IMG/VR virus record: IMGVR_UViG_3300000115_000194
Coordinates: 934 to 24,037 of that record
Origin: a virus
Length of the DNA: 23,104 nucleotides
Strand: one strand, 5' to 3'
The notes under the pieces were generated by a model, which saw nothing but the letters and a program-made list of their open reading frames with translations, did not search any database and had not been told where the DNA came from. The number at the start of each line of letters is the position of its first letter. The first letter of the stretch is position 1. Shown here piece after piece: positions 3,704 to 18,663 of this stretch. Both the position numbers and the translations under genes were made by a program.

Positions 3704-4242
3704 TTACATTTAAGGAATATTTTGAAGGTGAGGAAACTCACGAAACAGTAGCCCTACTACCTGGTGGATATAAACCACCTACCAAAGGACACTTTAATGC
3801 ATTTAAATATATACTTCAGGATGCAGATAAGGGTGTAGTTCTTATTGGTAACAAGGACAGAGATGGTATTACTGCTGATCAGGCAAGAGACATTTGGGAA
3901 GTTTACGCCAAGTATCTAGGTAAGCCTATTGAAGTAGCTATTGCAGGTGTTACACCAGTTAGATCAGTATATGAATTTGCTGATGCAAACAAGGATGTTA
4001 AGATTATTGTTGGTGCTGGTGATAAGGATGAAGATGTAAAGCGTTATTCATACTTTGAAAAAAATATTGAAAAGTATCCATTAGTTCAGGTAGTTAAAAT
4101 ACCAATGCAGTCAGAAGGTATATCAGGTACACAAACACGTGCTATGATTGCTGATGATATTGATACAGCTGTCGATCACTTTACACCGGAAGAAATTAAC
4201 CAGACTGATAAAGATATTATAAAATCTATATTAGGAGTATAA
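3700..4242 (+). CDS. Cytidylyltransferase-like (HxGH-type) nucleotidyltransferase, 180 aa
   Basis: This is an HxGH-type nucleotidyltransferase, the superfamily of NMN and phosphopantetheine adenylyltransferases. The nucleotide-binding loop PGGYKPPTKGHFNAF is at about 21-35, with T28-x-G-H31 in place of HxGH. The second signature ISGTQTR is at 141-147 (compare ISSTxxR). GAGDKDED at 105-112 fits the loop before it. The length is right for NadM-type enzymes. The reaction would be transfer of AMP or CMP from NTP to a phosphorylated acceptor; the acceptor cannot be read from the sequence. The N-terminus MITFKEYFE, ahead of the catalytic core, is shared with neighbours and looks like a capsid-targeting signal. 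The start overlaps the upstream stop (ATGA), so translation is probably coupled to the ligase-like gene. Confidence 0.85.
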   Translation: MITFKEYFEGEETHETVALLPGGYKPPTKGHFNAFKYILQDADKGVVLIGNKDRDGITADQARDIWEVYAKYLGKPIEVAIAGVTPVRSVYEFADANKDVKIIVGAGDKDEDVKRYSYFEKNIEKYPLVQVVKIPMQSEGISGTQTRAMIADDIDTAVDHFTPEEINQTDKDIIKSILGV

Positions 4243-5892: not shown

Positions 5893-6576
5893 TTAGCTAC
5901 TATGTCTATCGTACATATCTACAAACTTATAAAATTCATTACGAGTCTTATCATCCGCCATAAAATCACCGGTAAGCTTACTAGTAATCATTGCACATCC
6001 GTGATGTTTAACACCTCTATTACATGCACAGCTATGCTGAGCTCTTATAACAACAGCCACACCCCTGTTACCCTCACAAATTTTATCAATTGCTTGTGTA
6101 ATTTGAGTTGTCATACCCTCTTGGATTTGTGGACGTCTTGCATAATAATCAACAATACGATTAAGCTTTGATAATCCAACAACCTTACCATCCTCAGATG
6201 GAATATATGCTACGTGAGCTACACCTGTAAATGCCATATGGTGATGAGAGCACAAGCTAACAACAGGAATTCCTGTCTGAGCTACAATACCATCATAACC
6301 ATCACTAGGGAATGCTGTTACCTTAGGTGGTAAATTATAACATCCGGATGCAATATCATTAACAAATGCTTTTGCTACACGCATAGGTGTATTATCGGAG
6401 TTAGGATCATTACGCCAATCAAAGCCTAACGCGTCTAAATATTTCTCGTATGCTGCAGCTGCATTATTAATAATGTTCTGCTTTTCTTCTTCTGTCTTAG
6501 GATGGCTACTACTAGCAGTAGGTAGTTTAGTGGATGTACCACGTTCTACGTGGGTGTCTTTGTTTTGATTTTCCAT
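5893..6576 (-). CDS. folE: GTP cyclohydrolase I
   Basis: The enzyme converts GTP to 7,8-dihydroneopterin triphosphate, the first step of both folate and 7-deazaguanine (preQ0) synthesis. The catalytic core is complete. Zinc ligands are C109 and H112 in [10 protein letters not shown] and C183 in [31 protein letters not shown] (134-153) is the conserved core signature, and TPMRVAKAF (63-71) fits the N-terminal region. The length (227 aa) is normal; the first ~28 residues are a polar, Ser/Thr-rich extension. In this window it pairs with queD and queE, which points to preQ0-type chemistry rather than folate. It is the first gene of a three-gene minus-strand operon with a sigma70-type promoter and a near-leaderless start. 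Confidence 0.95.
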
Positions 6577-6584
6577 ATATACAT

Positions 6585-6612
6585 ATAATAACCTATAAAA
6601 TGGTTATATCAA
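6585..6612 (-). promoter_or_regulatory. Sigma70-type promoter of folE
   Basis: On the minus strand, -35 TTGATA (6612-6607), a 16-nt spacer and -10 TATTAT (6590-6585). Predicted +1 is near 6578, giving a leader of about 2 nt before the folE ATG at 6576. The 16-nt spacer matches the other early-type promoters here. Confidence 0.7.
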
Positions 6613-6613
6613 G

Positions 6614-6621
6614 ACTAAATA
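6614..6621 (+). promoter_or_regulatory. Weak late-promoter-like box (ACTAAATA)
   Basis: It deviates from TATAAATA at the first two positions, but lies 1 nt from the folE -35 on the other strand and just before the ATGs at 6622 and 6631. With T4 spacing +1 would be 6627, which would favour the second ATG at 6631. Confidence 0.4.
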
Positions 6622-7341
6622 ATGAAGTATATGAAAAGATTGTCTCAACGAGAGTTAATAGAAGAGGGTTTTGCTGATCTTGCGATGGCCGCGGCAAAGG
6701 GCGCAGCAAAGTATATAGCTCCAACTGCATATGGAGCTATTAAGACTGTAAAAGATACAATACAAAACTCTTTTGGCGGTCCAAAAAAATATATTGAGAG
6801 TTGGAAGAGTACGTTTTCTAATGTAATATCAGATATACAAGGTATAAATGTTGTAAATAAAGGTAAAAGAGGTGCACCTCTTTGGAAGGTTAGTTTTCAG
6901 ATGGAGCTAAGGGATCCTTTTACACATGATCCTGTTGATACATGGATACCTGTAAATGGTTTAGTTATTAAGGAGACGGGTGATAAACAGGGTAACAAAC
7001 AATTTAGTTTGATTAGTGATAGTAAAGATATAGATGTAATAATGATGGATCTAATCAAAAATAACAAGGACATGGAGGAGGCACTAAAGGATTTTGATAA
7101 AAAGGTGTTAGCTAGATTATCACAAGAGGGTGACGTCAATAATAGTACAGAAGATAAAAGTACAGAAGATAAGCCTCAACCCACTCCACCGCCTTTACCA
7201 GAAAAACCAAAAGAATCTCCTAAACAAAGGATAGTAGGTAAAAGTCGTTCTGGCTCAAACAGAAAACAGAGGTCAGAAAATGAAGAGGTAAATTTAAATC
7301 AAAAAAGTTTGCTGAAACACTTGCAATCGATGTCTCGCTAG
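6622..7341 (+). CDS. Unknown phage protein, 239 aa, basic/Pro-rich C-terminus
   Basis: Two ATGs are possible (6622 and 6631, three codons apart). The N-terminus RLSQRELIEE-GFADLAMAAAKGAAKYIAP carries an I-E-E/G sequence matching T4 gp21 prohead cleavage, followed by a small-residue-rich helix. Residues about 40-165 form a mixed domain (FGGPKKYIESWKSTFSNVI, then beta-rich WKVSFQMELRDPF) with no motif I know. From about 175 the sequence is low complexity: a repeated STEDK, a PTPPPLPEKP stretch, then Arg/Lys/Ser-rich. It stands alone between the folE operon and queD, and a hairpin follows its stop. A late virion protein is possible; function unknown. Confidence 0.75.
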   Translation: MKYMKRLSQRELIEEGFADLAMAAAKGAAKYIAPTAYGAIKTVKDTIQNSFGGPKKYIESWKSTFSNVISDIQGINVVNKGKRGAPLWKVSFQMELRDPFTHDPVDTWIPVNGLVIKETGDKQGNKQFSLISDSKDIDVIMMDLIKNNKDMEEALKDFDKKVLARLSQEGDVNNSTEDKSTEDKPQPTPPPLPEKPKESPKQRIVGKSRSGSNRKQRSENEEVNLNQKSLLKHLQSMSR

Positions 7342-7370
7342 AATAAATGGACTATAGGGACGGGAGAGAA

Positions 7371-7404
7371 AGACCTAAATACTGATCTCTATAGGTCTGG
7401 GTTT
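7371..7404 (+). terminator. Probable Rho-independent terminator
   Basis: AGACCTA (7371-7377) and TAGGTCT (7392-7398) form a perfect 7-bp stem around a 14-nt loop, followed by GG-GTTTT (7399-7404). The stem has only three G-C pairs and the T run is short, so it is a modest terminator. It sits 30 nt past the stop of the upstream gene, in the longest gene-free stretch of the window (7342-7469). Confidence 0.5.
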
Positions 7405-7435
7405 TATAATATTATTTAAAGTTATAATTTTACAG

Positions 7436-7463
7436 TTGATTAAAGTACTTTTGTGGTTATAAT
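7436..7463 (+). promoter_or_regulatory. Sigma70-type promoter of queD
   Basis: -35 TTGATT (7436-7441), 16-nt spacer, -10 TATAAT (7458-7463). Seven nt past the -10 gives +1 at 7470, the A of the queD ATG: a predicted leaderless transcript. Confidence 0.8.
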
Positions 7464-7469
7464 GATTAC

Positions 7470-8147
7470 ATGAGTAAATATCAATCTACAAAGGTGGTCG
7501 AATTAGGCTCGTGTGCTTTTAGACAGTGGCGAGCAACACATAGTCATTGTCAATACTTACACGGCTATCAACTTAAAGCTAAATTATGGTTTGGTTGCAA
7601 TGAACTAGATGAGAGAAACTGGTGTGTAGACTTCGGAGGTCTTAAAGAACTAAAAGATCATCTAAAAGATACATTTGATCACACAACTACCGTAGCGTAT
7701 GATGATCCAGAGCTAGCGACATTTAAAGAGCTTAATGAAAAAGGACTTATACAATTAAGAGTATTTGCAAAGGGTGTAGGTATTGAAAGAGTTGCGGAGG
7801 AAGTTTATAACTTAGCAAATGACTTTATAAAGTATCATACAAAGGATAGGTGTTGGGTAGAAAAGGTTGAAGTATTTGAACATGAAGATAACTCTGCCAC
7901 CTTTAGTAACTGCATTGATGAATTTAGTGTAATGGTTAACGACACTCAAACAGAAGCTGAACCGTCAATTGAAGAGTTATCAACAGCTACCCAAGCACTT
8001 GAGCAAGTACAGGTAAATACATCTAAACCTAAGGTGGTAAAGGCTGAAGATGTACCTAAAAAGAAGCCTTCTAAAGGTCTGCCCGACTTACCGGGTAATA
8101 GTACTAAAACAAAAGGTAATTGGTTTAAAGGTACAACGTGGGGCTAG
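7470..8147 (+). CDS. queD: 6-carboxy-tetrahydropterin synthase-like (QueD/PTPS family)
   Basis: QueD turns dihydroneopterin triphosphate, the FolE product, into 6-carboxy-tetrahydropterin on the way to preQ0. Family features: THSHCQYLHGYQLKAKLWF (23-41), with C27 at the usual nucleophile position and H31; CVDFGGLKELKDHL with DH before TTTV (the DFgdLK...DH motif); and VEKVEVFEHEDNSATF near 130-145 (the catalytic Glu region). The usual HGH is HGY (Y33), and the first zinc His of FxAAH has no clear equivalent, although H24 and H26 are close by. The last ~70 residues are a polar, Lys/Pro-rich extension ending NWFKGTTWG. The 3' end overlaps convergent phoH by 4 nt. Confidence 0.85.
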   Translation: MSKYQSTKVVELGSCAFRQWRATHSHCQYLHGYQLKAKLWFGCNELDERNWCVDFGGLKELKDHLKDTFDHTTTVAYDDPELATFKELNEKGLIQLRVFAKGVGIERVAEEVYNLANDFIKYHTKDRCWVEKVEVFEHEDNSATFSNCIDEFSVMVNDTQTEAEPSIEELSTATQALEQVQVNTSKPKVVKAEDVPKKKPSKGLPDLPGNSTKTKGNWFKGTTWG

Positions 8148-8872
8148 GTATCCAACATCTTACATATGTGACGTAAGATCTTTGATCTTGCAATTTCACT
8201 ATTACCAAATTCGAATGCGAAGATATTATTGTCTTCGCATTCTTGGTTATCGAACCTCTCTAAAACCTCATCAAAGCCAGACTTATTAATGTCAGATTGA
8301 TTACCATCACCACAAATAATATATTTACTATCTCTACCAAATCTAGTTAGAATCGTAGTTAACTCACCCTTTGTAAGATTTTGAGCTTCATCAACAATAA
8401 CGATAGATTTATTAAATGTAAGGCCTCTTACAAAGTTTACAGGTATAGCCTCAATAATCCCTTTATGCATAAGCATCTGCGACGTCGACACGCTGGTAAT
8501 TTCTCTAACCTTTTCAATAAGTGGTGCTGCATAAGGTGAGAACTTATCATCTACTTCACCTGGTAGAGCTCCTAATGATTTTTCAGCTGATTCGGCTACT
8601 GATCTAATATAAATAAGCTTTTCAACCACCTCATCACGTATCTGTTCTAGAGCAGTATAGACAGCAATATACGTCTTCATAGAACCGGCTGGTCCATCAA
8701 CGAATACCATATTCGTATCCTTATCTCTACACTTAAAATAGAATTCTTTCTGTAATTTATTAAAATAGAATGGCTTTCGAATATTAAAATTCAGTAACCA
8801 GTTGTTATTAAATGACTCTTCAAGATCAATATCATCAATCTCCCGACGCTTACGCGAAGTTTTTTTACTCAT
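8144..8872 (-). CDS. phoH: PhoH-like P-loop ATPase
   Basis: This is a PhoH-family ATPase, common in marine phages and of debated role (phosphate stress or RNA metabolism). Walker A is GPAGSMKT (60-67), a variant of GPAGTGKT that keeps the Lys and Thr. Walker B is IVIVDEAQNL (157-166, DEAQ). GALPGEVDDKFSPYAAPL (101-118) and the CGDGNQSD sensor-like segment are classic for the family. The first ~35 residues are a basic and acidic extension. The length (242 aa) is typical. It is a single minus-strand gene between queD and queE with a late-type box 7 nt upstream, so it may be expressed late, unlike its early-type neighbours. Confidence 0.93.
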   Translation of the reverse strand: MSKKTSRKRREIDDIDLEESFNNNWLLNFNIRKPFYFNKLQKEFYFKCRDKDTNMVFVDGPAGSMKTYIAVYTALEQIRDEVVEKLIYIRSVAESAEKSLGALPGEVDDKFSPYAAPLIEKVREITSVSTSQMLMHKGIIEAIPVNFVRGLTFNKSIVIVDEAQNLTKGELTTILTRFGRDSKYIICGDGNQSDINKSGFDEVLERFDNQECEDNNIFAFEFGNSEIARSKILRHICKMLDT

Positions 8873-8878
8873 TAACAG

Positions 8879-8886
8879 TATTTATG
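8879..8886 (-). promoter_or_regulatory. T4-type late promoter of phoH (CATAAATA)
   Basis: On the minus strand CATAAATA runs from 8886 to 8879. T4 spacing puts +1 at 8873, one nt before the phoH ATG (8872). It directly abuts the queE -35 on the plus strand. Confidence 0.65.
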
Positions 8887-8914
8887 TTGATATATAAAAA
8901 TTGCATGTTATAAT
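8887..8914 (+). promoter_or_regulatory. Sigma70-type promoter of queE
   Basis: -35 TTGATA (8887-8892), 16-nt spacer, -10 TATAAT (8909-8914). Predicted +1 is 8921, one nt before the ATG at 8922. Its presence argues against a start at the in-frame TTG at 8901, which lies inside the promoter. Confidence 0.8.
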
Positions 8915-8921
8915 ATTAAAT

Positions 8922-9692
8922 ATGATAGATTGTGATAAAGAGTATCTACTAATGGCAGGTGAGAATGGTGTACCAGAGTTATTTTATACCGTTGAAGGTG
9001 AAGGTGAATATGTAGGTCAACCTTCTGTCTTTCTTAGGTTGTTCGGATGTAACCTAACGTGTAAAGGTTTTATATCAGAAGATGCACCTCATGGATGTGA
9101 TTCGTTTATATCATGGTCTAAGAAGAATAAGGTATCGTTTAATGGTATGTTTAAGTTACTTGAGGATGGAAATTGTATTGAGCACTTACGTGAAGGTGCT
9201 ATTTTTAAGTATACCGGTGGTGAACCGATGGTAAGACAGAAGCAGTTAATGAAGTTTACTGATGCATTTATTGAGAAGTATGACTTTTTGCCTCGTATTG
9301 ATTTTGAGACTAATGCTACAATGCAACCTGAAGAAGATTGGGTAACTAAGTACAAGGCTACATTCACTACCTCACCAAAGCTAACTACTAATGGTGATCC
9401 TGAAGAGAAGACTTATAAACCTGAAGTACTAAAGTGGCATAAAGATCATAACTCTGGGTTTAAATTTGTTATAACGCAATCAGAAGATATTGAAGAGATA
9501 TGGCGTAAGTATATAAAAGATACTAACGGTATTAATATTCCTTTAAATCGTGTTTGGTTTATGCCCTGTGCAGGTTCCCGTGAAGAGCATATTAGAAATG
9601 CTGAGGCTGTAGCAGAATATGCTAAAGCAATGCATGTTAACTTCTCTCCTAGACTTCACCTACTACTTTGGGATATGGCATTACGCGTGTAG
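8922..9692 (+). CDS. queE: 7-carboxy-7-deazaguanine synthase (radical SAM)
   Basis: QueE converts 6-carboxy-tetrahydropterin to 7-carboxy-7-deazaguanine, the step after QueD. The N-terminus has the family opening FYTVEGEGEYVGQPSVFLR (21-39). The cluster loop follows as C43-x3-C47-K-G-F50, with the next cysteine at C59 in GCDS, so the motif reads CX3CX11C rather than CX3CX2C; C59-D60 fits the CD(T/S) that ends the usual motif. SAM-binding KYTGGEPM and the closing SPRLHLLLWD are intact. The length (256 aa) is slightly above bacterial QueE. The ATG at 8922 is chosen because the upstream TTG lies in the promoter. preQ0 would still need QueC, which is not in this window. Confidence 0.9.
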   Translation: MIDCDKEYLLMAGENGVPELFYTVEGEGEYVGQPSVFLRLFGCNLTCKGFISEDAPHGCDSFISWSKKNKVSFNGMFKLLEDGNCIEHLREGAIFKYTGGEPMVRQKQLMKFTDAFIEKYDFLPRIDFETNATMQPEEDWVTKYKATFTTSPKLTTNGDPEEKTYKPEVLKWHKDHNSGFKFVITQSEDIEEIWRKYIKDTNGINIPLNRVWFMPCAGSREEHIRNAEAVAEYAKAMHVNFSPRLHLLLWDMALRV

Positions 9693-9727: not shown

Positions 9728-10471
9728 ATGAGAATTGCAATATGTGGAGCAGCAAACACCGGTAAGACAACACTAGTACAGGGGTTTCTTAAGAAATGGA
9801 AAACATACAGTACGCCGAAAAATACATATAGGGATCTTATTAAAGAGGGTGCATTAGACCACTCTACCAGTACAACGACAGAAAATCAAACCAAAATACT
9901 TGCAAGTTTAATTAAGCAGCAAGAGCAGTTTAAGAGGTTAGATGAAAAGATTATACATGATAGATGTACATTAGATGCCTTAGCTTATACTATGTGGTGC
10001 TACGGTAAGAATAAAGATGGTTTTGATACTACATATGTAGAGACACAAATTGAACAAGTTAAAGAGTCAATGAGATCCTTAGATATTATATTTTTAGCTA
10101 AGTTTGACAAGTCACAAGTACCAGAAGATAACGGAGTTCGTGAAACTGACGTAGAATATATTACAGAAATAGATAATATATATGAATCTTTATATCAGCA
10201 ATATAAACAAAATGCCGCGGCCGATGTATTCTTTCCAAAAGATGATACACCACTTATATTACCACTACCACATAACGAGCAAGCGCGTATTAGTATGATT
10301 GCTGATTATATAACACCTGAGGGTGAGATGTATGGTGAAGAAAACTCTATACTTAACCCTGAAAATATCGGAGAGCTTGAACATCTAGTACAGCAACAGC
10401 AACTGGAGCGTGAGGCAGAAGAAGCTGAAAAAAAGCTACTCGAAAAGGTTAATAAAGAGTTAAATTTATAA
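9728..10471 (+). CDS. P-loop ATPase/kinase (NadR-kinase/AAA_28-like), 247 aa
   Basis: Walker A is CGAANTGKTTL (6-16). H77-D78-R79 in IIHDRCTLDALAY, roughly 65 residues on, fits the DR(C) motif of small-molecule kinases such as NadR's ribosylnicotinamide kinase domain and thymidylate kinases. LDIIFLAKFD (about 119-128) is a hydrophobic strand before the lid region. From ~215 the tail is Gln/Glu/Lys-rich and probably coiled coil. The substrate (nucleoside, nucleotide or nicotinamide riboside) cannot be read from motifs. It follows queE by 35 nt, but with its own late-type box. The 3' end overlaps the convergent fibre gene by 6 nt. Confidence 0.8.
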   Translation: MRIAICGAANTGKTTLVQGFLKKWKTYSTPKNTYRDLIKEGALDHSTSTTTENQTKILASLIKQQEQFKRLDEKIIHDRCTLDALAYTMWCYGKNKDGFDTTYVETQIEQVKESMRSLDIIFLAKFDKSQVPEDNGVRETDVEYITEIDNIYESLYQQYKQNAAADVFFPKDDTPLILPLPHNEQARISMIADYITPEGEMYGEENSILNPENIGELEHLVQQQQLEREAEEAEKKLLEKVNKELNL

Positions 10472-12817
10472 GTTCTTATATAACAGGACGTTGTTATTAC
10501 CAGGTGCAGCTGCAGCTATGTATGTGCCATCTATACTTAGATCAACAGGGCCAAGTTGGCTCTGTTTTGATTTAGTTATAAGTTCCGTTTTATTAACAAA
10601 TGGGTAATTAAATACACATATTCGACCCGTGCCTTCGTCAGTTGTAGTTAATCTTTCCCCGACAGCAACCCTCGTACCGTCTGCGCTTATAGATACTTGA
10701 TCTATACCGCCTTTACTGCCGTTTGCCGGTGTGTATATACCTACTTCACTCCAGCTACTACCATTCCAACTATAAGCTCGAGCGGTACCGTCTCCATTGT
10801 TCTCTTTAGAGGATGCTATAATCATTTTATCCCCTGTACTATTAATACACACATCAGACCCGTAGCCACTTCCCACGCTACCAGTTTGTCTAAATACTTC
10901 TTCCCATCTATTATTATCTTCTGACCATTTAAAAGCACATACACTCCCATCACCGGTTCCACCGCCTATAATAATCATATTATTGCTTATACATACAGCG
11001 CTTCCAAAGCCATAACCGACGTTAGAGTTGTTTATACTACCGTAAATCTGCTTATCGTATTCTATATCTACGAGGTTATTAAGATCACCGGTTAGAGCAG
11101 AGACATAACTCTTGTTTTCCTCTATTATACCATCAATCAACCTACCAGTTGCAACACTATATTTACCGACAGAACCGTAAGAACGTGTATCCGTCGGACG
11201 GCTACCTACGGCAATGTATTCCTCGTTACCATCTAAATATACAGATGTTCCAAACCGGTTACCATATTTGAGCTCTTTTGTGAAATTAAACATGTCACCT
11301 GACCTCGTATAAATAGACGCTCTATTTGAACCGGCCATTCCGATCACCAATTTATTTTTTCTCATCGATATATCAGTGATAGGGCTACCGACCTCAATAA
11401 ATCCTACCTCAACCAGACTCGAACTGTCTGATACCTTAAATAAACTAACCTCATATGGACTCTCACGTGTAGCTACAGCTGCAATTAGATCTCCTATATC
11501 GGTAATAGCTATACTATTTCGCCAGTTCAGTTTACCAGCAGTTTTATTAACACCCTTCGCAAGAGGATATAAATCAATATCACGTACAGGATCTGACGGT
11601 CCTACGTTAGCCGTTATATTATTAACGCCGGTTATATTATTATATGTACCACTACCTGTCGAACCACCACTTGACGATAGAGTAGCTATCGAGCCATTTG
11701 CATTAATTTGCGTAACAGTAACTGTTACATCATTTGCCGGTGAGCTACCACCTAAATTATCACCACTAATAGTAATTTTATCACCGGAACTATAACCCGT
11801 TCCGCCTGTACTAGCGGCTACCGTATAATCTCCATTAGCCGCTGTTATATCAAAAGCAGATCCGGATCCACTACTACCGGAGTCGTTTGCTACTACTTCT
11901 TCTCCAAATATAGAATATAATCTTATTTCAAAAATATCCGAATTTACAACATTACTATTTAATATTAAATTACCGGTAGTATCTGCTGTATGATTATAAC
12001 TTATAGTTATTGTACCGTTAGATTTATTAACATTATAGCTAAAATCTAATATATCTAACAACTGCTCATTATCTAAATCACCATTAACCACTAGACTACT
12101 AAATAAAGCCTCTTCTACCCTAACAATATCAACAATATAATCCTCTTTACTATTTAACTCCACCCCGCTAATGGTAACAGTTATACTATCAACAGCCTTA
12201 CCTAAGGCTTTAGGTGTAGGTGTTAGTATAATTTGGTTATTAACTACCTCAACATATACACCTAAGGACTGTGGATTAAGATCACCTGACTTCCAGTCTC
12301 TTTCTGGGGCTAGCTCCGTAACATTAAGGTAGTTTTCTGAAGTACGGGTTTCGTTAATTACATACTTATCTGTCGATCTAAATACACTAGTTAACTCACC
12401 TACCTTTATCTCTTCAACAATACTCAAACTCTCAATAACGCCTAAACCATCTGGATTTACAACACTATAAACATCATCGATCATTGTCTGATACGCACTA
12501 GCAGATAGTAAGAGAGACGTTACACTATTTAACTGCGTAATCTCGTCGTTTAAATATTGCTTAATATTATTAGATGTGTTCAATATACTACCACCATTTG
12601 ACATCATACTACAAAGCTGATTTGTAGCGGTAGTATGATATAAGAACTCTTCTTCAAATAAAGCATTCTCAATATTCAGATTAAAATCTTCAAAAGTAAT
12701 AGTCTTTGTTCCTTCTGTAACAGACTCAATAACAAACCTATCCGATAAATCTACATTAATAACTTCCGGTAGGTTTTTTATAAAGGAAATACGTGATACT
12801 TCATCTTCACATGACAT
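10466..12817 (-). CDS. Probable fibre/appendage protein with beta-propeller C-terminus, 783 aa
   Basis: This is a large, beta-rich, Ser/Thr/Gly/Asn-rich protein with almost no Cys, typical of phage fibres. Residues 1-75 (MSCEDE...LPEVINVDLSDRFVIES...FEEEF) are paralogous to the two genes upstream and probably form a virion-attachment module. A helical segment follows to ~110, then beta domains. About 310-400 is a Gly/Ser-rich module (GGTGYSSGDKITISG, PANDVTVTVT) of a kind seen in marine T4-like structural proteins. From ~414 to the end are repeated blades (FGSAVCISNNMIIIGGG, YGSDVCINSTGDKMIIAS, DQVSISADGTRVAVGE) fitting an FG-GAP/WD-like beta-propeller, a plausible receptor-binding head. It is the last gene of its operon, with its own late promoter and predicted leaderless start. 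Confidence 0.85.
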   Translation of the reverse strand: MSCEDEVSRISFIKNLPEVINVDLSDRFVIESVTEGTKTITFEDFNLNIENALFEEEFLYHTTATNQLCSMMSNGGSILNTSNNIKQYLNDEITQLNSVTSLLLSASAYQTMIDDVYSVVNPDGLGVIESLSIVEEIKVGELTSVFRSTDKYVINETRTSENYLNVTELAPERDWKSGDLNPQSLGVYVEVVNNQIILTPTPKALGKAVDSITVTISGVELNSKEDYIVDIVRVEEALFSSLVVNGDLDNEQLLDILDFSYNVNKSNGTITISYNHTADTTGNLILNSNVVNSDIFEIRLYSIFGEEVVANDSGSSGSGSAFDITAANGDYTVAASTGGTGYSSGDKITISGDNLGGSSPANDVTVTVTQINANGSIATLSSSGGSTGSGTYNNITGVNNITANVGPSDPVRDIDLYPLAKGVNKTAGKLNWRNSIAITDIGDLIAAVATRESPYEVSLFKVSDSSSLVEVGFIEVGSPITDISMRKNKLVIGMAGSNRASIYTRSGDMFNFTKELKYGNRFGTSVYLDGNEEYIAVGSRPTDTRSYGSVGKYSVATGRLIDGIIEENKSYVSALTGDLNNLVDIEYDKQIYGSINNSNVGYGFGSAVCISNNMIIIGGGTGDGSVCAFKWSEDNNRWEEVFRQTGSVGSGYGSDVCINSTGDKMIIASSKENNGDGTARAYSWNGSSWSEVGIYTPANGSKGGIDQVSISADGTRVAVGERLTTTDEGTGRICVFNYPFVNKTELITKSKQSQLGPVDLSIDGTYIAAAAPGNNNVLLYKNL

Positions 12818-12822
12818 ATACT

Positions 12823-12830
12823 TATTTATG
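12823..12830 (-). promoter_or_regulatory. T4-type late promoter (CATAAATA)
   Basis: On the minus strand CATAAATA spans 12830-12823, overlapping the stop codon of the upstream paralogue (TAA at 12828-12826). T4 spacing places +1 at 12817, exactly the A of the ATG. Confidence 0.75.
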
Positions 12831-13146
12831 CAGGTACACTTACTTCATCAAGTAATTTAGTTAAATTACTAGATAACGCAGCAATTTCAGATACTTTTTC
12901 TGATGTAAAGGTATCAAGATCATCAAGTATATTATCAAGTGCAGACGATAAACCAATTATATCTGTCGTCTGCTTATTAAACTCCTCTTCAAAAGCCATT
13001 TGTTCTATATCAAAAATAATATTATCAAAACAAACAGTATTAACACCTAATGTACCATCAATAATAAAAAAATCTAATGGTTCAATATTATATGTTTCGG
13101 GTAACTGGTTTATATTACCTAATTTAGTACGTGATTTACAGGGCAT
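12826..13146 (-). CDS. Short paralogue of the fibre N-terminal module, 106 aa
   Basis: The pattern MPC...KL....LPETYNI...D.FIID......FDNIIFDIEQMAFEEEF aligns along its first ~70 residues with both neighbours. The rest (about 70-106) is a single predicted helix (SALDNILDDLDTF..), so this is essentially the attachment module plus a short coiled coil, with no receptor-binding domain. It begins 4 nt after the upstream stop and has no late box of its own, so it is probably read from the promoter at 13528-13535. It could be a collar or whisker-like adaptor, or a trimmer fibre; its role is unknown. Confidence 0.75.
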   Translation of the reverse strand: MPCKSRTKLGNINQLPETYNIEPLDFFIIDGTLGVNTVCFDNIIFDIEQMAFEEEFNKQTTDIIGLSSALDNILDDLDTFTSEKVSEIAALSSNLTKLLDEVSVPA

Positions 13147-13150
13147 AACT

Positions 13151-13522
13151 TTAGAGTATTGAGCTATAACGCTCTTTTAGGGTTACATACGTATTACTAA
13201 GACTTTCAACAATCGAAGAGAGTTGTGTCTGCAGAGAATTAATATATACAAGTCCTTCACCAGCTTCACGCTGAAAATCGTCGTACTTTTGAGTAAAATT
13301 CTTTTCCGCAGCCTTGTTTACTATTTCAGTTATATCTGTAGAGTGCTTTCTAAAAATATCACTAAAGGTTGTTTGCTCTATATCAAAAATAAAATTTTTA
13401 TAATCTACAACATATGGACCATCTAGAGTATCAATAATAAATTTATCACCTACGTTTAAGTTAACTACACTCGGTAACTCTTGAGTATTATATACTAACT
13501 TATTTTGTCCAACGCATGGCAT
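13151..13522 (-). CDS. Short paralogue of the fibre N-terminal module, 123 aa, first gene of operon
   Basis: MPCVGQNKLV..., then ELPSVVNLNVGDKFIIDT and FIFDIEQTTFSDIF, repeat the module found in the next two genes. Residues ~70-123 are helical and probably coiled coil (EGLVYINSLQTQLSSIVESL). It starts the three-gene minus-strand fibre operon behind a late promoter and is predicted to be leaderless. Its divergent neighbour is the first glycosyltransferase of the glycan operon. The tandem triplication with decay or loss of the distal domain suggests gene duplication within a receptor-binding locus. Confidence 0.75.
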   Translation of the reverse strand: MPCVGQNKLVYNTQELPSVVNLNVGDKFIIDTLDGPYVVDYKNFIFDIEQTTFSDIFRKHSTDITEIVNKAAEKNFTQKYDDFQREAGEGLVYINSLQTQLSSIVESLSNTYVTLKERYSSIL

Positions 13523-13527
13523 ATAGT

Positions 13528-13535
13528 TATTTATG
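13528..13535 (-). promoter_or_regulatory. T4-type late promoter (CATAAATA)
   Basis: On the minus strand CATAAATAACTATATG runs from 13535 to the start codon. T4 spacing puts +1 at 13522, exactly the A of the ATG. It abuts the plus-strand early-type -35 with no gap. Confidence 0.8.
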
Positions 13536-13562
13536 TTGCAATTGCAAATTTACAGCTATAAT
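13536..13562 (+). promoter_or_regulatory. Probable sigma70-type promoter of the glycan operon
   Basis: -35 TTGCAA (13536-13541), a 15-nt spacer and -10 TATAAT (13557-13562) give +1 near 13569, about 4 nt before the ATG at 13573. A second overlapping pair, TTGCAA (13542-13547) and TATAGT (13563-13568), is also possible. The spacers are shorter than in the other early-type promoters here. Confidence 0.5.
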
Positions 13563-13572
13563 TATAGTATAT

Positions 13573-14421
13573 ATGAATGATCAAATAGGCATATGTATAT
13601 CAACATGTGATAGACCTGAATATCTCAAAAAATGTATCAACTCTCTAAAAGGTGTGGATGCAGTGGTTTGTATATGTGATGATGGTCATAAAAAGGTTGA
13701 TGATTTTATACCATCCAATATTAATATTCTAAGGACAAAGAAACCACGAAGTGGTGTGGCTATTAATAAAAATATGGGGTTTAGACATCTTTTAGATAAA
13801 GGATGTGATTATATCTTTATGATAGAAGATGATTGTATAATCAAGGATCATATATTGTTTTCAAAATATATAGAGGCGAGTAAAATAACTGGTATACAAC
13901 ACTTTAACTTTGGCCCGGGTTCTCCATGGAATAGAAAACAAGATAATAAATCACTAAAGGGCGATTTATCTAAGAGGATGGATGCAAAGCAGGATGGTGA
14001 ACCGGTACCACGTATGGTGATTGAGTATGATGAGTCTGGTGAGACAGTATTATGTCTTTATGAACACGTAGTAGGCATGTTATCCTTTTTTACGCGTAAA
14101 GGTCTAGAGGAGGTTGGACTATATGACGAAGATTTTTATAACGCGTGGGAGCATGTAGAGCATACGTATAGATTTATTCAAAAGGATATGACAACGCCTT
14201 TTTGGTGGTTTGCTGATATAAAGGATAGTGAAAAATATATTGAAGGTCAACAGGATGAAAAGGCTAATACAAGCTTAGCTAAAAATGAAAATGAGTTTAA
14301 TAAGTTAGTACATGATGGTTTGAGGGTGTTTAGATCCAAGCATAACATCGTACCAGGTGAAATAAAATCTGCATCAAAAACGGAGGTAGTAAATAACATA
14401 CAAAAAATTAAGCCATTATGA
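13573..14421 (+). CDS. GT-A family glycosyltransferase, 282 aa
   Basis: The frame is open from 13516, but that region holds the divergent promoters; the ATG at 13573 gives a normal GT2 N-terminus. IGICISTCDRPEYLKKCINSL (5-25) is the family-2 nucleotide-sugar start. The metal-binding acidic motif is I84-E-D86-D87-C within YIFMIEDDC. A later NAWEHVEHTYR resembles the catalytic ED..f segment. The donor and acceptor are unknown. It is the first gene of a six-gene plus-strand operon that includes UDP-galactopyranose mutase, suggesting the operon builds a glycan on the virion or host surface. It overlaps the next gene by ATGA. Confidence 0.85.
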   Translation: MNDQIGICISTCDRPEYLKKCINSLKGVDAVVCICDDGHKKVDDFIPSNINILRTKKPRSGVAINKNMGFRHLLDKGCDYIFMIEDDCIIKDHILFSKYIEASKITGIQHFNFGPGSPWNRKQDNKSLKGDLSKRMDAKQDGEPVPRMVIEYDESGETVLCLYEHVVGMLSFFTRKGLEEVGLYDEDFYNAWEHVEHTYRFIQKDMTTPFWWFADIKDSEKYIEGQQDEKANTSLAKNENEFNKLVHDGLRVFRSKHNIVPGEIKSASKTEVVNNIQKIKPL

Positions 14422-15083
14422 AGAATATAGATGTAGTTATTTTATCAAACACTGCTAATATGGAGTATTATAAAATGCTCAAGCAGTGTATTACGAGTAT
14501 TAAGAGCAATACAGATGTTAATACTAATATTATTTTAGTTGAGACAAACAAAGAGTTAAAGGGTAAGGATCTTAAACTACCAATAGATACAATTTATATA
14601 CCAGAAGAAGAAGAATTTAATTATAATAAGTTCCTAAATTATGGGCTACAGTTTTGCAAAAATGACTTTATATGTATAACTAATAATGATGTAATATATG
14701 AATCAAACACACTAAAAGTTTTAGTTGATAGTCTAGATAAATATGACTCAGTCAGTCCATGGGATAATAGAGACTCGTGGAAGTTTCATAAAGAGCGTAA
14801 AACATATGAAGGATATAGAACGACAATACATCTTACAGGTTGGTGTATTGTAACAACTAAAGAGACGCTTAAGAATATAGGGGGATCATTTGATGAGAGA
14901 TTTGAATTTTGGTATCAGGATGATGATTATTCTAGATTATTACAACAAAATAATCTAACTCATGCTCTAATTGGTGATGTATCTGTATACCATCTCGGTC
15001 AGCAGAGTCATAAATTGTTTGAAGATGTAAATAAAAAGACTCAGGGTATGAGTGAAGTTTTTATAAGTAAATGGAAATCTTAA
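14418..15083 (+). CDS. GT2-type glycosyltransferase, 221 aa
   Basis: DVVILSNTANMEYYKMLKQCITSI at the N-terminus is the family-2 (rhamnosyl- or galactofuranosyl-type) opening. ICITNNDVIY (85-94) carries the metal-binding N-N-D in place of DxD. Further on, LTGWCIVTTKETLKNIGGSFDERFEFWYQDDDY is the acceptor/catalytic W..DD.DY region, and VYHLGQQS its usual closing His. It is shorter than its neighbour and may consist of the catalytic domain only. Coupled by ATGA to the upstream glycosyltransferase. With UDP-galactopyranose mutase immediately downstream, a galactofuranosyltransferase is a reasonable guess, not shown by the sequence. Confidence 0.82.
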   Translation: MKNIDVVILSNTANMEYYKMLKQCITSIKSNTDVNTNIILVETNKELKGKDLKLPIDTIYIPEEEEFNYNKFLNYGLQFCKNDFICITNNDVIYESNTLKVLVDSLDKYDSVSPWDNRDSWKFHKERKTYEGYRTTIHLTGWCIVTTKETLKNIGGSFDERFEFWYQDDDYSRLLQQNNLTHALIGDVSVYHLGQQSHKLFEDVNKKTQGMSEVFISKWKS

Positions 15084-15087
15084 AAAT

Positions 15088-15104
15088 AAAATAATTATTA
15101 TTTT
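15088..15104 (+). repeat. Perfect 7-bp inverted repeat, all A/T
   Basis: AAAATAA and TTATTTT flank a 3-nt loop in the 32-nt gap between the glycosyltransferase and the mutase gene. It has no G-C pair, so it is weak as a terminator. A poor -10 (TATACG, 15104-15109) follows at leaderless spacing from the ATG at 15116. Confidence 0.35.
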
Positions 15105-15115
15105 ATACGAAAATA

Positions 15116-16105
15116 ATGAAAATTAATATTATTGGTTGTGGTTTGTCAGGTGTTACAGCAGCAATTCTTCTCAAAGAGCAGGGCCACGATGTTGAGATAT
15201 TCGAATCCCGGGAACATATAGGTGGTAATTGTTATGATGAGAAAATAGATGATGTTGTAGTTCATAAATATGGATTGCATTGTTTTCACACAAACGATAA
15301 TGAGGTTTGGGATTTTTTAAACAGGTACACAAAATTTAATAATCATCAGTTACGTGCAAGAGCGAATACAAAACTTGGTCTAATATCTATACCATATAAC
15401 AAAAAGACGGAAGAGCAAATTAGGCGCGATCTAAGTGAAGAAGAAATTCATGAATTAATTTTTAAAGACTACTCGGAGCGTCATTGGGGTATACCGTGGG
15501 ATAATCTACCAAAGTCAATCTCCGGTCGAGTACCTACAAAACGTGATAGTTATGATGATAGATATTCTCTAGATAAATATCAAGGCATTCCTGTGAATGG
15601 ATATACAGCAATGTTTAAAAATATGCTTGATGGTATTAAGGTCAATCTTGGTGTAAGTAAAGACGAGTACCGTAACCTTAAGGGTGATAAGATGGTGTAT
15701 ACAGGTAAGCCTGATGATTTTTTTAATTATGAATTTGGTAGACTAGAGTATAGATCACTAAAATTTAAACACAAAAAGGTACAGAGAACAGATTTGTTTT
15801 CTTTTGAAAGAGGTGCACAAATAAATGAATGTAATAATAAGCCTTACAATAGGACAGTAGACAATAGTGTCTTTTTAAATCAGCAGCTTCCACATACTAT
15901 TTTGACAAGAGATTACCCGGAGGAGCATAACGATACAAATGATCCTATATATCCAAAGAGATTTGGTAGCAATATTGAAATATTTAATAAGTATAAAAAG
16001 GCCATCAAAGCTGACACTAATACTATTTTTCTTGGAAGATTAGCCACTTACAAATATCTAGATATGTGGATGGCTATTAAACAGGTAATGGTAAAATTAA
16101 AATGA
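15116..16105 (+). CDS. glf: UDP-galactopyranose mutase
   Basis: The flavoenzyme interconverts UDP-galactopyranose and UDP-galactofuranose. The FAD-binding Rossmann motif IIGCGLSG is at 5-12, followed about 20 residues later by the acidic end of the second strand (EIFESREHIGGNCYD). HKYGLHCFHTND (compare yGpHiFHT) and KDYSERHWGI are family signatures, and the C-terminal FLGRLATYKYLDMWMAI is the conserved GR..tYkY..Md segment. The 329-aa length is a little short for bacterial Glf but all key blocks are present. It supplies the donor for a galactofuranosyltransferase, presumably one of the flanking glycosyltransferases. Overlaps the next gene by ATGA. Confidence 0.93.
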   Translation: MKINIIGCGLSGVTAAILLKEQGHDVEIFESREHIGGNCYDEKIDDVVVHKYGLHCFHTNDNEVWDFLNRYTKFNNHQLRARANTKLGLISIPYNKKTEEQIRRDLSEEEIHELIFKDYSERHWGIPWDNLPKSISGRVPTKRDSYDDRYSLDKYQGIPVNGYTAMFKNMLDGIKVNLGVSKDEYRNLKGDKMVYTGKPDDFFNYEFGRLEYRSLKFKHKKVQRTDLFSFERGAQINECNNKPYNRTVDNSVFLNQQLPHTILTRDYPEEHNDTNDPIYPKRFGSNIEIFNKYKKAIKADTNTIFLGRLATYKYLDMWMAIKQVMVKLK

Positions 16106-16857
16106 AAAAGAAATCATGTATATTAACTGTAGCAAGGCAAGAATATGACTTTGCTCCAATATGGTATAATTATTATTCACAATTTTTTAGTAGTTGTGAT
16201 ATGTATTGTTTAATTAATGAAGAGGGTGATACAAGCTTTGAGGGGCTAGATATTAATGTTGAATATAGGGAGTCGGATTTATCGATTGGTTTGCACCAGT
16301 CCTTAGTAAACAACACAACTCAAAAAATTAAGCAGTTGTTTGAAGAGTATGAGTGGGTGGTTTTTACTGAAACAGATGAACTTATTGTACCTAATCCGAA
16401 CATATATAAAAACTTTACTGATATTTTTAACTCGGAAACTAATCAAAGGTGTTGTGGTTATAATTTAATACAGCGTGAATCAGAAGAGGCCTTTGATAGT
16501 GAGAGGAGTATTTTAAGTCAGAGAGAATATTGGGTTAGAATGCCAATGTTTGATAAAACATTAATACTAAAACAACCGGTGACTTATGAGTTGGGATACC
16601 ATCATTGTAAACCAGAAACACAAATTAATGAAAATATTGCACTCGTACATCTACACTATTTTGATAAGGATATAATGCTTAACAAATTAAGCAGAACGAG
16701 AAAATTTGACTGGGGTAGTGAAGCAAGTGCTAGTGGAATACAGAATAAGAGTGGGGACAGGGTTGCATTGAATAGGGTAAAGGAGTATAGGTTAAGGTGC
16801 AGTAAAATACCCTGTGAATTATATGTAGATAAACAAACAGGTGAATTTATAATATAG
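16102..16857 (+). CDS. Glycosyltransferase-like protein (GT2/GT92-type), 251 aa
   Basis: CILTVARQEYDFAPIWYNYYSQFFSSCDMYCLIN (5-38) is the opening of the Glyco_tranf_2_4 / DUF23-type glycosyltransferases, which typically read v.rnE...l.eW...y...G. WVVFTETDELIVP (84-96) supplies the metal-binding D-E. HHCKPETQ and LVHLHYFDKDIML later resemble the His-rich closing region. It acts within the glycan operon, overlapping the mutase gene by ATGA and leaving 2 nt before the LicD-type gene. Donor and acceptor unknown. Confidence 0.75.
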   Translation: MKKKSCILTVARQEYDFAPIWYNYYSQFFSSCDMYCLINEEGDTSFEGLDINVEYRESDLSIGLHQSLVNNTTQKIKQLFEEYEWVVFTETDELIVPNPNIYKNFTDIFNSETNQRCCGYNLIQRESEEAFDSERSILSQREYWVRMPMFDKTLILKQPVTYELGYHHCKPETQINENIALVHLHYFDKDIMLNKLSRTRKFDWGSEASASGIQNKSGDRVALNRVKEYRLRCSKIPCELYVDKQTGEFII

Positions 16858-16859
16858 TT

Positions 16860-17411
16860 ATGGGCAATAAAGCTAATGCAACAAACAAAGAAACCCTAAA
16901 CAATACACTCCAAAAGATTTCTGTTATATTAAATAATAGTTCTGTTAAGGAATGGTTTATTAGTTATGGTACACTATTGGGTATTGTCCGCGACTTTTCC
17001 TGTATATCTCATGATGATGATATTGATATTTGTGTTTGTATGACACAATATGGTGCTGTAAAGCAGTTACTAGAAGATAATAGTTTTGAGATATGGAATA
17101 AAACATATCCTCATGATACAAGACTACATAACACGACATACATGATCAAAACCAAGCCTACAGAAGATATGGCTAGTATTGATTTTTATTTTTGTAGGGT
17201 TGATAACTCAGGGTCATATTTTGATATATGGGAGAATACAATGTGGCATAATTGCTTGGATAATGGTGGTAAGCTACCTACTAAAGAATGGAATGACACC
17301 ACTCTCAATATACCTAATAATTTTGAACGAAAGCTTATTGCACGGTATGGTAAGTGGTGGGTACCAAGCAAAACAAAACATGGAGGACCTAGCCCAAATA
17401 ATTTAATATAA
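16860..17411 (+). CDS. LicD/fukutin-like phosphotransferase, 183 aa
   Basis: The LicD nucleotidyltransferase-fold motif is clear: WFISYGTLLGIVRDF (32-46), then SHDDDIDICV (50-59), with the three Asp residues (52-54) and D56 as likely metal ligands. Family members move phosphocholine, or in eukaryotes ribitol phosphate, from a CDP- donor onto glycans. At 183 aa it is a minimal form. No CDP-choline synthesis gene is in the window, so the donor would come from the host, or the transferred group is different. It continues the glycan operon (3-nt gap to the methyltransferase). Confidence 0.85.
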   Translation: MGNKANATNKETLNNTLQKISVILNNSSVKEWFISYGTLLGIVRDFSCISHDDDIDICVCMTQYGAVKQLLEDNSFEIWNKTYPHDTRLHNTTYMIKTKPTEDMASIDFYFCRVDNSGSYFDIWENTMWHNCLDNGGKLPTKEWNDTTLNIPNNFERKLIARYGKWWVPSKTKHGGPSPNNLI

Positions 17412-17414
17412 CTT

Positions 17415-18047
17415 ATGGATAAAAAATACTGGACAGAATTTTATAAGAATAAAAATAATGTACATCAACTCAACACACCGAGTACGTTTGCTGTTTTTTG
17501 TAATGATAGCTTTTTTAAAGATAAAAACAGCATAGTTGATCTCGGCTGCGGCAGTGGTAGAGATTCAGTTTATTTTTCTAGTAAAGAAAAAAATGTGTAT
17601 GCTATTGATCAGGCATTATATGGTCTTACACACTATGTTACACATATAGAGAATATAGACAACATAACCTTATTAGAAGAAGACTTTATTACATATGATT
17701 ACACCGGTTTAGATAATATTGATGTTTTTTACTCGAGATTTACAATACACTCAATTACACAAGAAGAAGAAGATATTATTTTAACTAACATTTACAACAA
17801 CTTACCTACGGGTGGTTTATTTGCCTGTGAGGTTAGAACAACAAAGGACCCTCTTTGTGGTGTAGGTGAACATATCTGCGATACAACTTATATGACTGAT
17901 CATAAAAGAAGGTTCATCGACTCTTCCAGTTTTATTAATAAGTGTTTAGGTATGGGATTTAATTTAAAATACTTTACTGAAGAAGATAATTTATCTGTAT
18001 ATAAGGACGATAATCCTGTTTTAATGAGAGTAATTCTAGAAAAGTAG
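17415..18047 (+). CDS. Class I SAM-dependent methyltransferase, 210 aa
   Basis: SAM-binding motif I is IVDLGCGSGRDSVYF (40-54), followed by motif II acid NVYAIDQ and a post-I LLEEDF. YSRFTIHSI is the motif IV-equivalent strand. W6 with YKNKNNV at the N-terminus resembles small-molecule or sugar methyltransferases of the tellurite-resistance/UbiG type. As the last gene of the glycan operon it probably methylates a sugar or the glycan end, but that is context-based inference. Its TAG directly abuts the -35 of the next promoter. Confidence 0.85.
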   Translation: MDKKYWTEFYKNKNNVHQLNTPSTFAVFCNDSFFKDKNSIVDLGCGSGRDSVYFSSKEKNVYAIDQALYGLTHYVTHIENIDNITLLEEDFITYDYTGLDNIDVFYSRFTIHSITQEEEDIILTNIYNNLPTGGLFACEVRTTKDPLCGVGEHICDTTYMTDHKRRFIDSSSFINKCLGMGFNLKYFTEEDNLSVYKDDNPVLMRVILEK

Positions 18048-18075
18048 TTGAACCAATAACATTTGACACTATAAT
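18048..18075 (+). promoter_or_regulatory. Sigma70-type promoter
   Basis: -35 TTGAAC (18048-18053), 16-nt spacer, -10 TATAAT (18070-18075). Predicted +1 is 18082, exactly the A of the downstream ATG. The whole promoter fits in the 34-nt gap. Confidence 0.8.
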
Positions 18076-18081
18076 AATAGT

Positions 18082-18663
18082 ATGATAATTGATCAACAAG
18101 TATATAATGGAGACTTTATTCACGAGCGGTTTGCGTATAAGGTATTTCGTAAGGAAGTAACACCGTATGGTAATATTGTGGCGTTTAGAGCTCCAATGGA
18201 TGTTAGTGATAATTTAATTGATCTAGAGGATACCCTATCTAATGACTTTATTCACTCTGAAGATGCAATTAACTTCTGCTGGGAGATTCCAAATTTATGC
18301 CCTATCGGTGCAGTATCATTCCAGAGGTTATTCAATACTGCTGTAGGTAGAATTCTAAGTGATACAATTAAAAAGGATATCGTGATGGATGGAGACGATA
18401 TTATGGTTGTAGATAGTTTTAAGGGTAGTGATGGTGAGGTAAGAGACGAGGGTAAGGTGAGTGTTTCAATTACTTATAGTAGAGAAAATGTAGCTCTCGG
18501 TCACACAGGTATTAACGTTAATGCAGGTAATAAGGCTCCAGGATTTGCTTATTCATCTAATTTAGATGATATTACTGTCGAATCCTTTATGAATAGTGTT
18601 ATTACATATTTTAATGATGAAGTAAAGGATCAGTTTGTTGCTACGACAAAGATTATTGTATGA
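18082..18663 (+). CDS. Conserved T4-like marine phage protein (possibly DUF366-type), 193 aa
   Basis: The opening MIIDQQVYNGDFIHERFAYKVF, the central IVAFRAPMDVSDNLIDLED, then INFCWEIPNLCPIGAVSFQRLFN and ALGHTGINVNAG are blocks I recognise from a protein conserved across T4-like cyanophages, which I associate, less surely, with DUF366. Function is unknown. No nucleotide-binding loop or membrane segment is present, and the sequence is beta-rich with scattered His and Asp. It heads the run that includes the co-chaperonin and, after a gap, the helicase, and has a strong early-type promoter. It overlaps the next gene by ATGA. Confidence 0.85.
   Translation: MIIDQQVYNGDFIHERFAYKVFRKEVTPYGNIVAFRAPMDVSDNLIDLEDTLSNDFIHSEDAINFCWEIPNLCPIGAVSFQRLFNTAVGRILSDTIKKDIVMDGDDIMVVDSFKGSDGEVRDEGKVSVSITYSRENVALGHTGINVNAGNKAPGFAYSSNLDDITVESFMNSVITYFNDEVKDQFVATTKIIV

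Follow-up and report, generated by a model that had tools for sequence, protein, structure and literature searches.

The window analysed here, a stretch of 23,104 nucleotides of viral DNA (positions 934 to 24,037 of IMG/VR record IMGVR_UViG_3300000115_000194), very probably holds one version of an exchangeable glycan cassette that occupies a fixed locus in a clade of uncultured T4-like phages. The cassette is made up of glycan genes, lies at the same place in related contigs, is exchanged as a block, lacks membrane machinery and encodes a UDP-galactopyranose mutase (UGM) with an intact active site. The six packed plus-strand genes that an earlier note had read as a phage glycan operon are real and support that reading; neighbouring genes either overlap or are separated by no more than about 35 nt. 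They encode, in order, two GT2-type glycosyltransferases, UGM, a protein weakly recognisable as a glycosyltransferase, a short transferase of the LicD type and a class I methyltransferase (Table 1). To call them a complete-looking route was too strong, as neither LicD donor synthesis nor UDP-Gal synthesis is encoded. The start at 13,516 in the ORF list for GT1 is an artefact, and 13,573 is the likely start. Judged from its predicted genes for PhoH, a gp62-like clamp loader and a gp3-like tail sheath stabiliser, the window phage is T4-like; gp23 was present in six of the 11 relatives tested.

Table 1. Features of the glycan locus and its flanks, in window coordinates
Feature	Position	Strand	Evidence or remark
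Thymidylate-kinase-like (tmk-like) gene, outer left flank	9728..10471	+	phrog_2107 7.2e-17
Three fibre-like ORFs with common N-terminal module, left flank	10466..13522	-	Absent in 8 relatives
Late-type box CATAAATAA of divergent fibre-like gene	13527..13535	-	Position-specific comparison
-10-like box TATAAT of GT1	13557..13562	+	TTGCAA at 13536-13541
GT1, GT-A fold, GT2-type glycosyltransferase	13573..14421	+	PF00535 2.2e-07; phrog_2456 3.3e-22
Exchanged segment	14412..18067	+	Absent from L084; 1922 bp of other glycan genes instead
GT2, second GT2-type glycosyltransferase	14418..15083	+	PF00535 3.5e-09
UGM, compact UDP-galactopyranose mutase, 329 aa	15116..16105	+	PF03275 (GLF) 1.4e-48; 1i8t 1e-65
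GT3, probable glycosyltransferase	16102..16857	+	PF01697 (GT92) 0.008, PF13704 (GT2_4) 0.078, both below cut-off
LicD, short LicD-type phosphotransferase	16860..17411	+	PF04991 5.4e-08
MT, class I SAM methyltransferase, TehB/TPMT-like	17415..18047	+	PF13649 (Methyltransf_25) 1.3e-07, PF03848, PF05724
DUF366 gene promoter-like TTGAAC-16-TATAAT	18048..18075	+	Right border of cassette
DUF366 gene, conserved right flank	18082..18663	+	PF04017 4.4e-19

The interval from the conserved GT1 to the DUF366 gene carries cassettes of varied content in 29 related virus contigs, and because similar cassettes occupy the same place in all of them the operon is more than a chance assembly. GT1 is the first cassette gene throughout and forms the constant anchor of the island, while the cassette ORFs, co-directional with a single exception, fall into 54 loose families. 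Their Pfam tally consists almost entirely of glycan enzymes, the variable content including fucosyl-, GT47-, GT7C-type and pyruvyl transferases, a sulfotransferase, sugar dehydratases, aminotransferases and methyltransferases. Block exchange is seen directly on comparison with the relative L084, which is 97-98% identical to the window on either side of the exchanged segment and carries in its place genes for a GT7C-type glycosyltransferase, a sulfotransferase-like protein and a methyltransferase. The DUF366 gene that closes the locus shares 70-100% identity across 80 virus contigs; no link between DUF366 and queuosine was found in the papers searched. None of the 221 cassette ORFs in the 29 contigs has two or more membrane segments and there is therefore no flippase, polymerase or polyprenyl-phosphate transferase among them, which extends to the whole set the lack of polymerase and flippase already remarked on for the window. 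The acceptor must therefore be reachable from the cytosol, which fits cytosolic protein glycosylation.

The UGM is recognised by its GLF domain (165.7 bits against a curated cut-off of 26.3) and FAD-binding Rossmann domain (NAD_binding_8, 6.9e-21), lacks about 30 residues after residue 110 and scores 252 bits against the TIGR00031 equivalog, under the cut-off of 303.75. All active-site residues are kept in the window protein (R138, R246, Y119, Y150, Y279, Y314, D316, W124, H50, H55 and H58), so far as sequence can indicate in agreement with the UDP-Galf chemistry originally suggested. The active site is conserved over 41 viral sequences, with Y150 replaced by W in 25 of the others. In the tree the window protein belongs to a compact lineage (support 100/100) in which 41 of the 45 sequences are viral and four come from MAG contigs; these four aside, the best bacterial matches have about 34% identity. 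The search for bacterial donors that the earlier note had proposed thus returned no recent UGM donor in the sampled genomes, and for this set such a donor is rejected. Two of the four MAG contigs, with GC of 0.50-0.61, may be truly bacterial, so viruses are not its sole members. The swap of a block between near-identical phages, the constancy of GT1 and the lack of a recent bacterial UGM donor among the genomes sampled had all escaped that first reading.

Among the other enzymes, GT1 has an invariant EDD at 85-87 and an AlphaFold2 model with pLDDT 90, whose PDB matches are GT-A enzymes (B4GALNT1, chondroitin polymerase and GlfT2). Its best kin in cultured phages include glycosyltransferases adjoining lysis/terminase genes in HK97-like phages and the glycosyltransferase region of mycobacteriophage Myrna, the latter at about 26% identity over 74%, a weak match common to many GT2-type enzymes. 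The GT2 model (pLDDT 68) likewise matches generic GT-A folds only, and no donor sugar could be assigned from either predicted structure. The NND and QDxDY motifs of GT2 are invariant in eight homologues; the gene accompanies UGM in the window, L008 and L071, occurs elsewhere also without it, and is a candidate Galf transferase. GT3 has no close relatives in 50,697 phage records, and searches of IMG/VR for relatives of GT3, LicD and MT found only the same cassette. The LicD assignment made at first sight holds at 33.6 bits, above the PF04991 gathering cut-off of 22.6, and the translation carries the GTLLGxxR...DDDID motif, GTLLGIVRDFSCISHDDDIDI. LicD is 37% identical to a protein of Synechococcus phage S-CAM7, reaches 5.2e-12 and 46 bits with the Mf1 cholinephosphotransferase model, below its cut-off of 225, and has no match among PDB sequences. 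MT matches TehB structures at 8e-4 to 1e-3 and by its sequence is TehB/TPMT-like, not a recognised sugar methyltransferase.

The left flank differs between relatives. Fibre-like genes adjoin GT1 in many loci, those of the window having no match in PHROG, while in eight relatives (L113, L114, L119, L124, L135, L146, L151 and L152) GT1 lies directly behind the tmk-like gene with gaps of 4-80 nt. About 11 distinct upstream regions of GT1 are of the non-fused kind; TATAAT is present in six and TAAAATAT in most others. GT1 appears, on these motifs, to be served by a conserved sigma70-like (early-type) promoter or else to be joined to the upstream nucleotide-metabolism operon. At the other border, TATAAT stands 3-20 nt before the ATG of DUF366 in 46 of 54 distinct upstream regions (shuffled mean 3.6, maximum 9). 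A simple count of the T4 late promoter TATAAATA gave six matches in the window against 5.8 expected and is uninformative alone because the two are so close; the reading of promoters as late or early rests on position-specific comparison among relatives.

We propose that GT1 would place the first sugar onto a constant acceptor in the cytosol and that the swappable genes behind it would extend and decorate the product. UGM would convert host UDP-Galp to UDP-Galf, a GT2-type enzyme would add Galf and GT3 another sugar, LicD could attach a phospho-group and MT perhaps a methyl group, yielding a short tag rather than a polymer. Recombination in the conserved flanks would exchange the block and alter the tag, as in capsule switching in bacteria, and the particle surface might thereby be hidden or retuned. 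The constancy of GT1 beside a variable remainder is as a constant acceptor would require. A virion protein of the fibre, tail or head is our leading candidate, at a little under an even chance; it is favoured by fibre-like neighbours in many loci, the distant similarity of GT1 to the Myrna enzyme and the intact UGM. Against it count the early-type promoter of GT1 opposite a late-type box on the fibre-like genes, the eight relatives in which GT1 follows the tmk-like gene with no adjoining fibre gene, and the weakness of the likeness to the Myrna enzyme. That the clade as a whole possesses a capsule-switching-like system for its own particles, with a constant initiating transferase acting on a virion protein and a swappable block behind it, is put forward tentatively.

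The enzymes may instead act from the cytosolic side, on host LPS core or O-unit precursors that host machinery then exports, the new epitope blocking adsorption of rival phages (superinfection exclusion). The missing membrane proteins are compatible with a host acceptor, because cytosolic enzymes also act on LPS core and inner-membrane lipid-linked units, and early expression of GT1, from its own promoter or through fusion with the tmk-like operon, would suit this role. Members of the LicD family are known to work in the cytosol, where they decorate precursors of lipo-oligosaccharide and teichoic acid. Host-surface remodelling has also been proposed by the pelagimyophage authors for their glycosyltransferase island (PMC7029224). 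A strictly lytic phage would, however, have little time to renew an existing surface, GT1 would require one acceptor across all hosts of a diverse clade, and gtrA/gtrB, wzx and wzy occur in no cassette. We regard remodelling of the host as possible, a virion protein being the slightly likelier acceptor than host LPS.

Glycosylation of modified DNA bases by GT1 and its partners, as a protection from host nucleases, is brought to mind by weak matches of GT1 to TAGT and phrog_842 and by Lactobacillus phage ATCCB, whose UGM adjoins a T4-type beta-glucosyltransferase and a thymidylate synthase. The TAGT score is nevertheless 15.5 bits against a cut-off of 27.5, and sulfo-, pyruvyl- and fucosyl-transferases are unlike base modification. 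PF00303 (the thymidylate synthase/dCMP hydroxymethylase family) is absent from all 12 relatives, one of them a 162-kb contig, in a search whose controls worked, leaving a route through hmC unsupported; a TET search gave no match but was silent in its controls too. We consider this the least probable of the readings. It is scarcely more credible that the locus is a recombination hot spot gathering glycan genes of little consequence: high turnover and genes that occur once, GT3, LicD and MT among them, would be expected of passive cargo, but the ORFs are intact, co-directional and tightly packed, their content is limited to glycan chemistry, the UGM active site is kept across 41 viral sequences and the promoters are conserved.

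Phage glycosyltransferase islands are known and common in metagenomes, and the window locus is a clean, capsule-locus-like variant of them. In this clade a short sugar tag on a surface seems to be varied in much the way that bacteria switch their capsules, and the mainly viral UGM lineage suggests that galactofuranose chemistry is kept within phages. If a virion acceptor is correct, virions would have serotypes, each phage carrying a short glycan that could be Galf-containing, fucosylated, sulfated, pyruvylated or phospho-decorated. The locus is compact and exactly bordered, its first enzyme is constant, alternative cassettes are plentiful in nature, and the window and L084 form a near-isogenic natural pair; the choice between virion and host as glycan target is therefore directly testable.

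Several known systems offer partial parallels. Gtr serotype conversion by temperate phages is likewise a phage-encoded change of surface glycan, as one possible outcome here, but depends on the GtrA flippase and GtrB bactoprenol glucosyltransferase, which are absent where 0 of 221 ORFs have two or more TM segments. UGMs are also encoded by the cultured Aeromonas phage 25, Erwinia phage FBB1, phiM9 and Lactobacillus phage ATCCB; these are longer (354-390 aa), 30-36% identical, of other lineages and outside such glycan cassettes. Bacterial capsule and O-antigen loci share the constant flanks, variable interior and switching by recombination, whereas the present cassette is on a phage genome and no Wzx flippase, Wzy polymerase or initiating membrane transferase was found in the cassettes of the 29 contigs. 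The mycobacteriophages Che8, Corndog and Myrna encode cytosolic glycosyltransferases, at times with methyltransferases, and GT1 is distantly similar to that of Myrna; to our knowledge no UGM, LicD or block exchange has been reported for them. A glycan on the virion is reported for all three (Freeman 2023, as cited in PMC12363180), whereas for the window phage it is a proposal. Of 50,697 phage records, those ranked best for the gp23 of the relative L160 share about 34% identity with it, and HTVC008M, although in that collection, is not one of them; by this measure the window clade is not close to HTVC008M and falls outside the pelagimyophage clade. The host recognition cluster of HTVC008M and its relatives is nonetheless similar in being T4-like, metagenomic and hypervariable, near fibre genes and with several glycosyltransferases, but it averages 44.6 kb, is mixed with fibre genes and is dominated by GT8 (PMC7029224), whereas here a glycan cassette of roughly 3-9 kb is set between a constant GT1 and DUF366.

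The glycan cassette of the window is exchangeable, and the locus that holds it is fixed. Using the flanking DUF366 gene (PF04017) as bait gave 80 virus contigs, and mapping all window proteins onto all loci revealed a fixed order of tmk-like gene, fibre-like genes (minus strand, where present), first glycosyltransferase (GT1), variable block, DUF366, clamp loader, GroES-like gene, helicase and tail gene. GT1 and DUF366 are both found in 29 contigs, a set that includes near-copies of one another and, as L002, the window's own cassette. The intervening 2.8-9 kb hold 221 ORFs, all except one on the plus strand, in 54 loose families. By Pfam, 140 distinct cassette ORFs are almost exclusively glycan enzymes (GT2, RXYLT1/GT47, GT11, GT7C, GT10, GDP-mannose dehydratase, DegT aminotransferase, FkbM methyltransferase, GLF and pyruvyl transferase). 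Where no GT1 is visible, glycan genes often precede DUF366 all the same; some of these contigs carry other genes there, so the site is commonly, though not universally, used in this way.

The contig L084 provides a natural exchange. It is 97.8% identical to the window up to 14411 and 96.7% identical from 18068 on, with 1,922 bases in place of the 3,656 between, encoding a GT7C-type transferase, a sulfotransferase-like protein and another methyltransferase. Identity falls from above 92% to background within the final bases of GT1 and resumes at the DUF366 promoter. Other contig pairs have flanks about 90% identical, yet cassette families only partly in common.

Features of the window, with the cassette genes in order
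Feature	Coordinates	Strand
Nucleotidyltransferase-like protein	3700-4242	
FolE (GTP cyclohydrolase), QueD, QueE	5893-9692	
tmk-like gene	9728-10471	+
Fibre-like ORFs (three)	10466-13522	-
Cassette, six genes	13573-18047	+
GT1 (GT2-type glycosyltransferase)	13573-14421	+
Second GT2-type glycosyltransferase	14418-15083	+
UDP-galactopyranose mutase (UGM)	15116-16105	+
Weakly recognisable glycosyltransferase		+
Short LicD-type protein	16860-17411	+
Class I methyltransferase		+
DUF366 gene	18082-18663	

Neighbouring cassette genes overlap or almost touch. The surroundings are T4-like, with PhoH, clamp-loader-like, GroES-like, helicase and tail-sheath-stabiliser genes, within an IMG/VR virus record of 24,037 bases; gp23, present in 6 of 11 related contigs tested, is about 34% identical to the best-ranked cultured-phage matches. 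FolE, QueD and QueE lie together, with DUF366 near, and suggest a 7-deazaguanine-type pathway that may serve to modify DNA or tRNA. The fibre-like ORFs share an N-terminal module, and the 783-aa ORF ends in propeller-like repeats (weak Kelch match).

GT1 has an invariant EDD motif and a confident predicted GT-A structure with generic structural matches. The family of the second glycosyltransferase occurs with UGM (contigs L008 and L071) and without it (L103, L111 and L113), making the protein only a candidate galactofuranosyl transferase. The LicD-type protein carries the GTLLG...DDDID core. Neither a gene supplying the donor of this protein nor one for UDP-galactose synthesis was recognised, and both compounds would be host-supplied. 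The nucleotidyltransferase-like protein (GGYKPPTKGHF motif; phrog_395 cytidyltransferase match, 1.4e-4) might in theory be able to supply a CDP-activated donor.

The window UGM retains the histidines, tyrosines, two arginines, tryptophan and aspartate of what we take, from the E. coli and Klebsiella enzymes, to be the active site; about 30 residues are missing after position 110, and the score stays below the TIGR00031 cut-off. A maximum-likelihood tree groups it with 41 virus rows (window counted) and 4 MAG rows; 16 bacterial and 5 cultured-phage UGMs fall outside this group, the split having 100/100 support. Same-locus UGMs of four contigs (L043, L063, L064 and L071) belong to a different branch of this compact lineage, so UGM probably entered the locus more than once. 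The lineage (about 330 aa) comes mostly from virus contigs and also from Verrucomicrobiota-type MAG contigs; in a Proteobacteria MAG contig (L166:37-10087) a compact UGM lies inside a long, co-directional, phage-cassette-like run of glycan genes. In Lactobacillus phage ATCCB (L254:2028-5083), UGM directly adjoins a T4-type DNA beta-glucosyltransferase and thymidylate synthase, a neighbourhood where galactofuranosyl DNA modification is possible.

A TATAAT box, kept in relatives, lies 10 nt before the GT1 start, and the divergent fibre-like gene starts shortly after CATAAATAA, a late-promoter-like element. Of 54 distinct DUF366 upstreams, 46 have TATAAT near the gene start, against 3.6 expected from shuffles that kept base composition only; related sequences among them are not independent. 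Eight relatives have no fibre gene, and there GT1 comes 4-80 nt after the tmk-like gene. The GT1 box and this adjacency point to expression that is probably early or together with nucleotide-metabolism genes. Across the window, clear Shine-Dalgarno sequences are mostly absent and promoter-like boxes lie just 3-15 nt upstream of start codons: TATAAT before queD, GT1, DUF366 and helicase, (C/T)ATAAATA before tmk, fib783, fib123, phoH and 4251. Boxes so close would leave transcripts nearly leaderless.

A simple hydropathy scan of the 29 contigs found at least two hydrophobic segments in none of the 221 cassette ORFs, so no cassette encodes a flippase, polymerase or membrane transferase. The acceptor must therefore be accessible from the cytosol, which leaves virion proteins, DNA and, at the inner membrane, LPS core or lipid-linked units. 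We lean tentatively, at slightly less than even chances, towards the virion, given the constancy of GT1, the fibre-like neighbours of the cassette and a weak resemblance between GT1 and a glycosyltransferase from Myrna, a phage with reportedly glycosylated virions (work cited by PMC12363180). Modification of the host surface, a possibility we hold with still less confidence, is favoured by the early-type promoter of GT1 and by the same proposal for pelagimyophages (PMC7029224). DNA is an unlikely acceptor: a dCMP hydroxymethylase family gene occurs in none of 12 relatives, with controls working, and a TET search gave no match, but its controls were silent too.

In the literature searched we found no counterpart to this cassette, which is pure in content, sharply bordered and laid out like a capsule locus, opens with a constant enzyme and has a natural near-isogenic swap pair. 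We therefore judge the cassette new in form, in its purity, sharp borders, constant first enzyme and near-isogenic swap pair, and known in kind: phage UGMs are already known, as are variable regions rich in glycosyltransferases in T4-like marine phages (PMC7029224).
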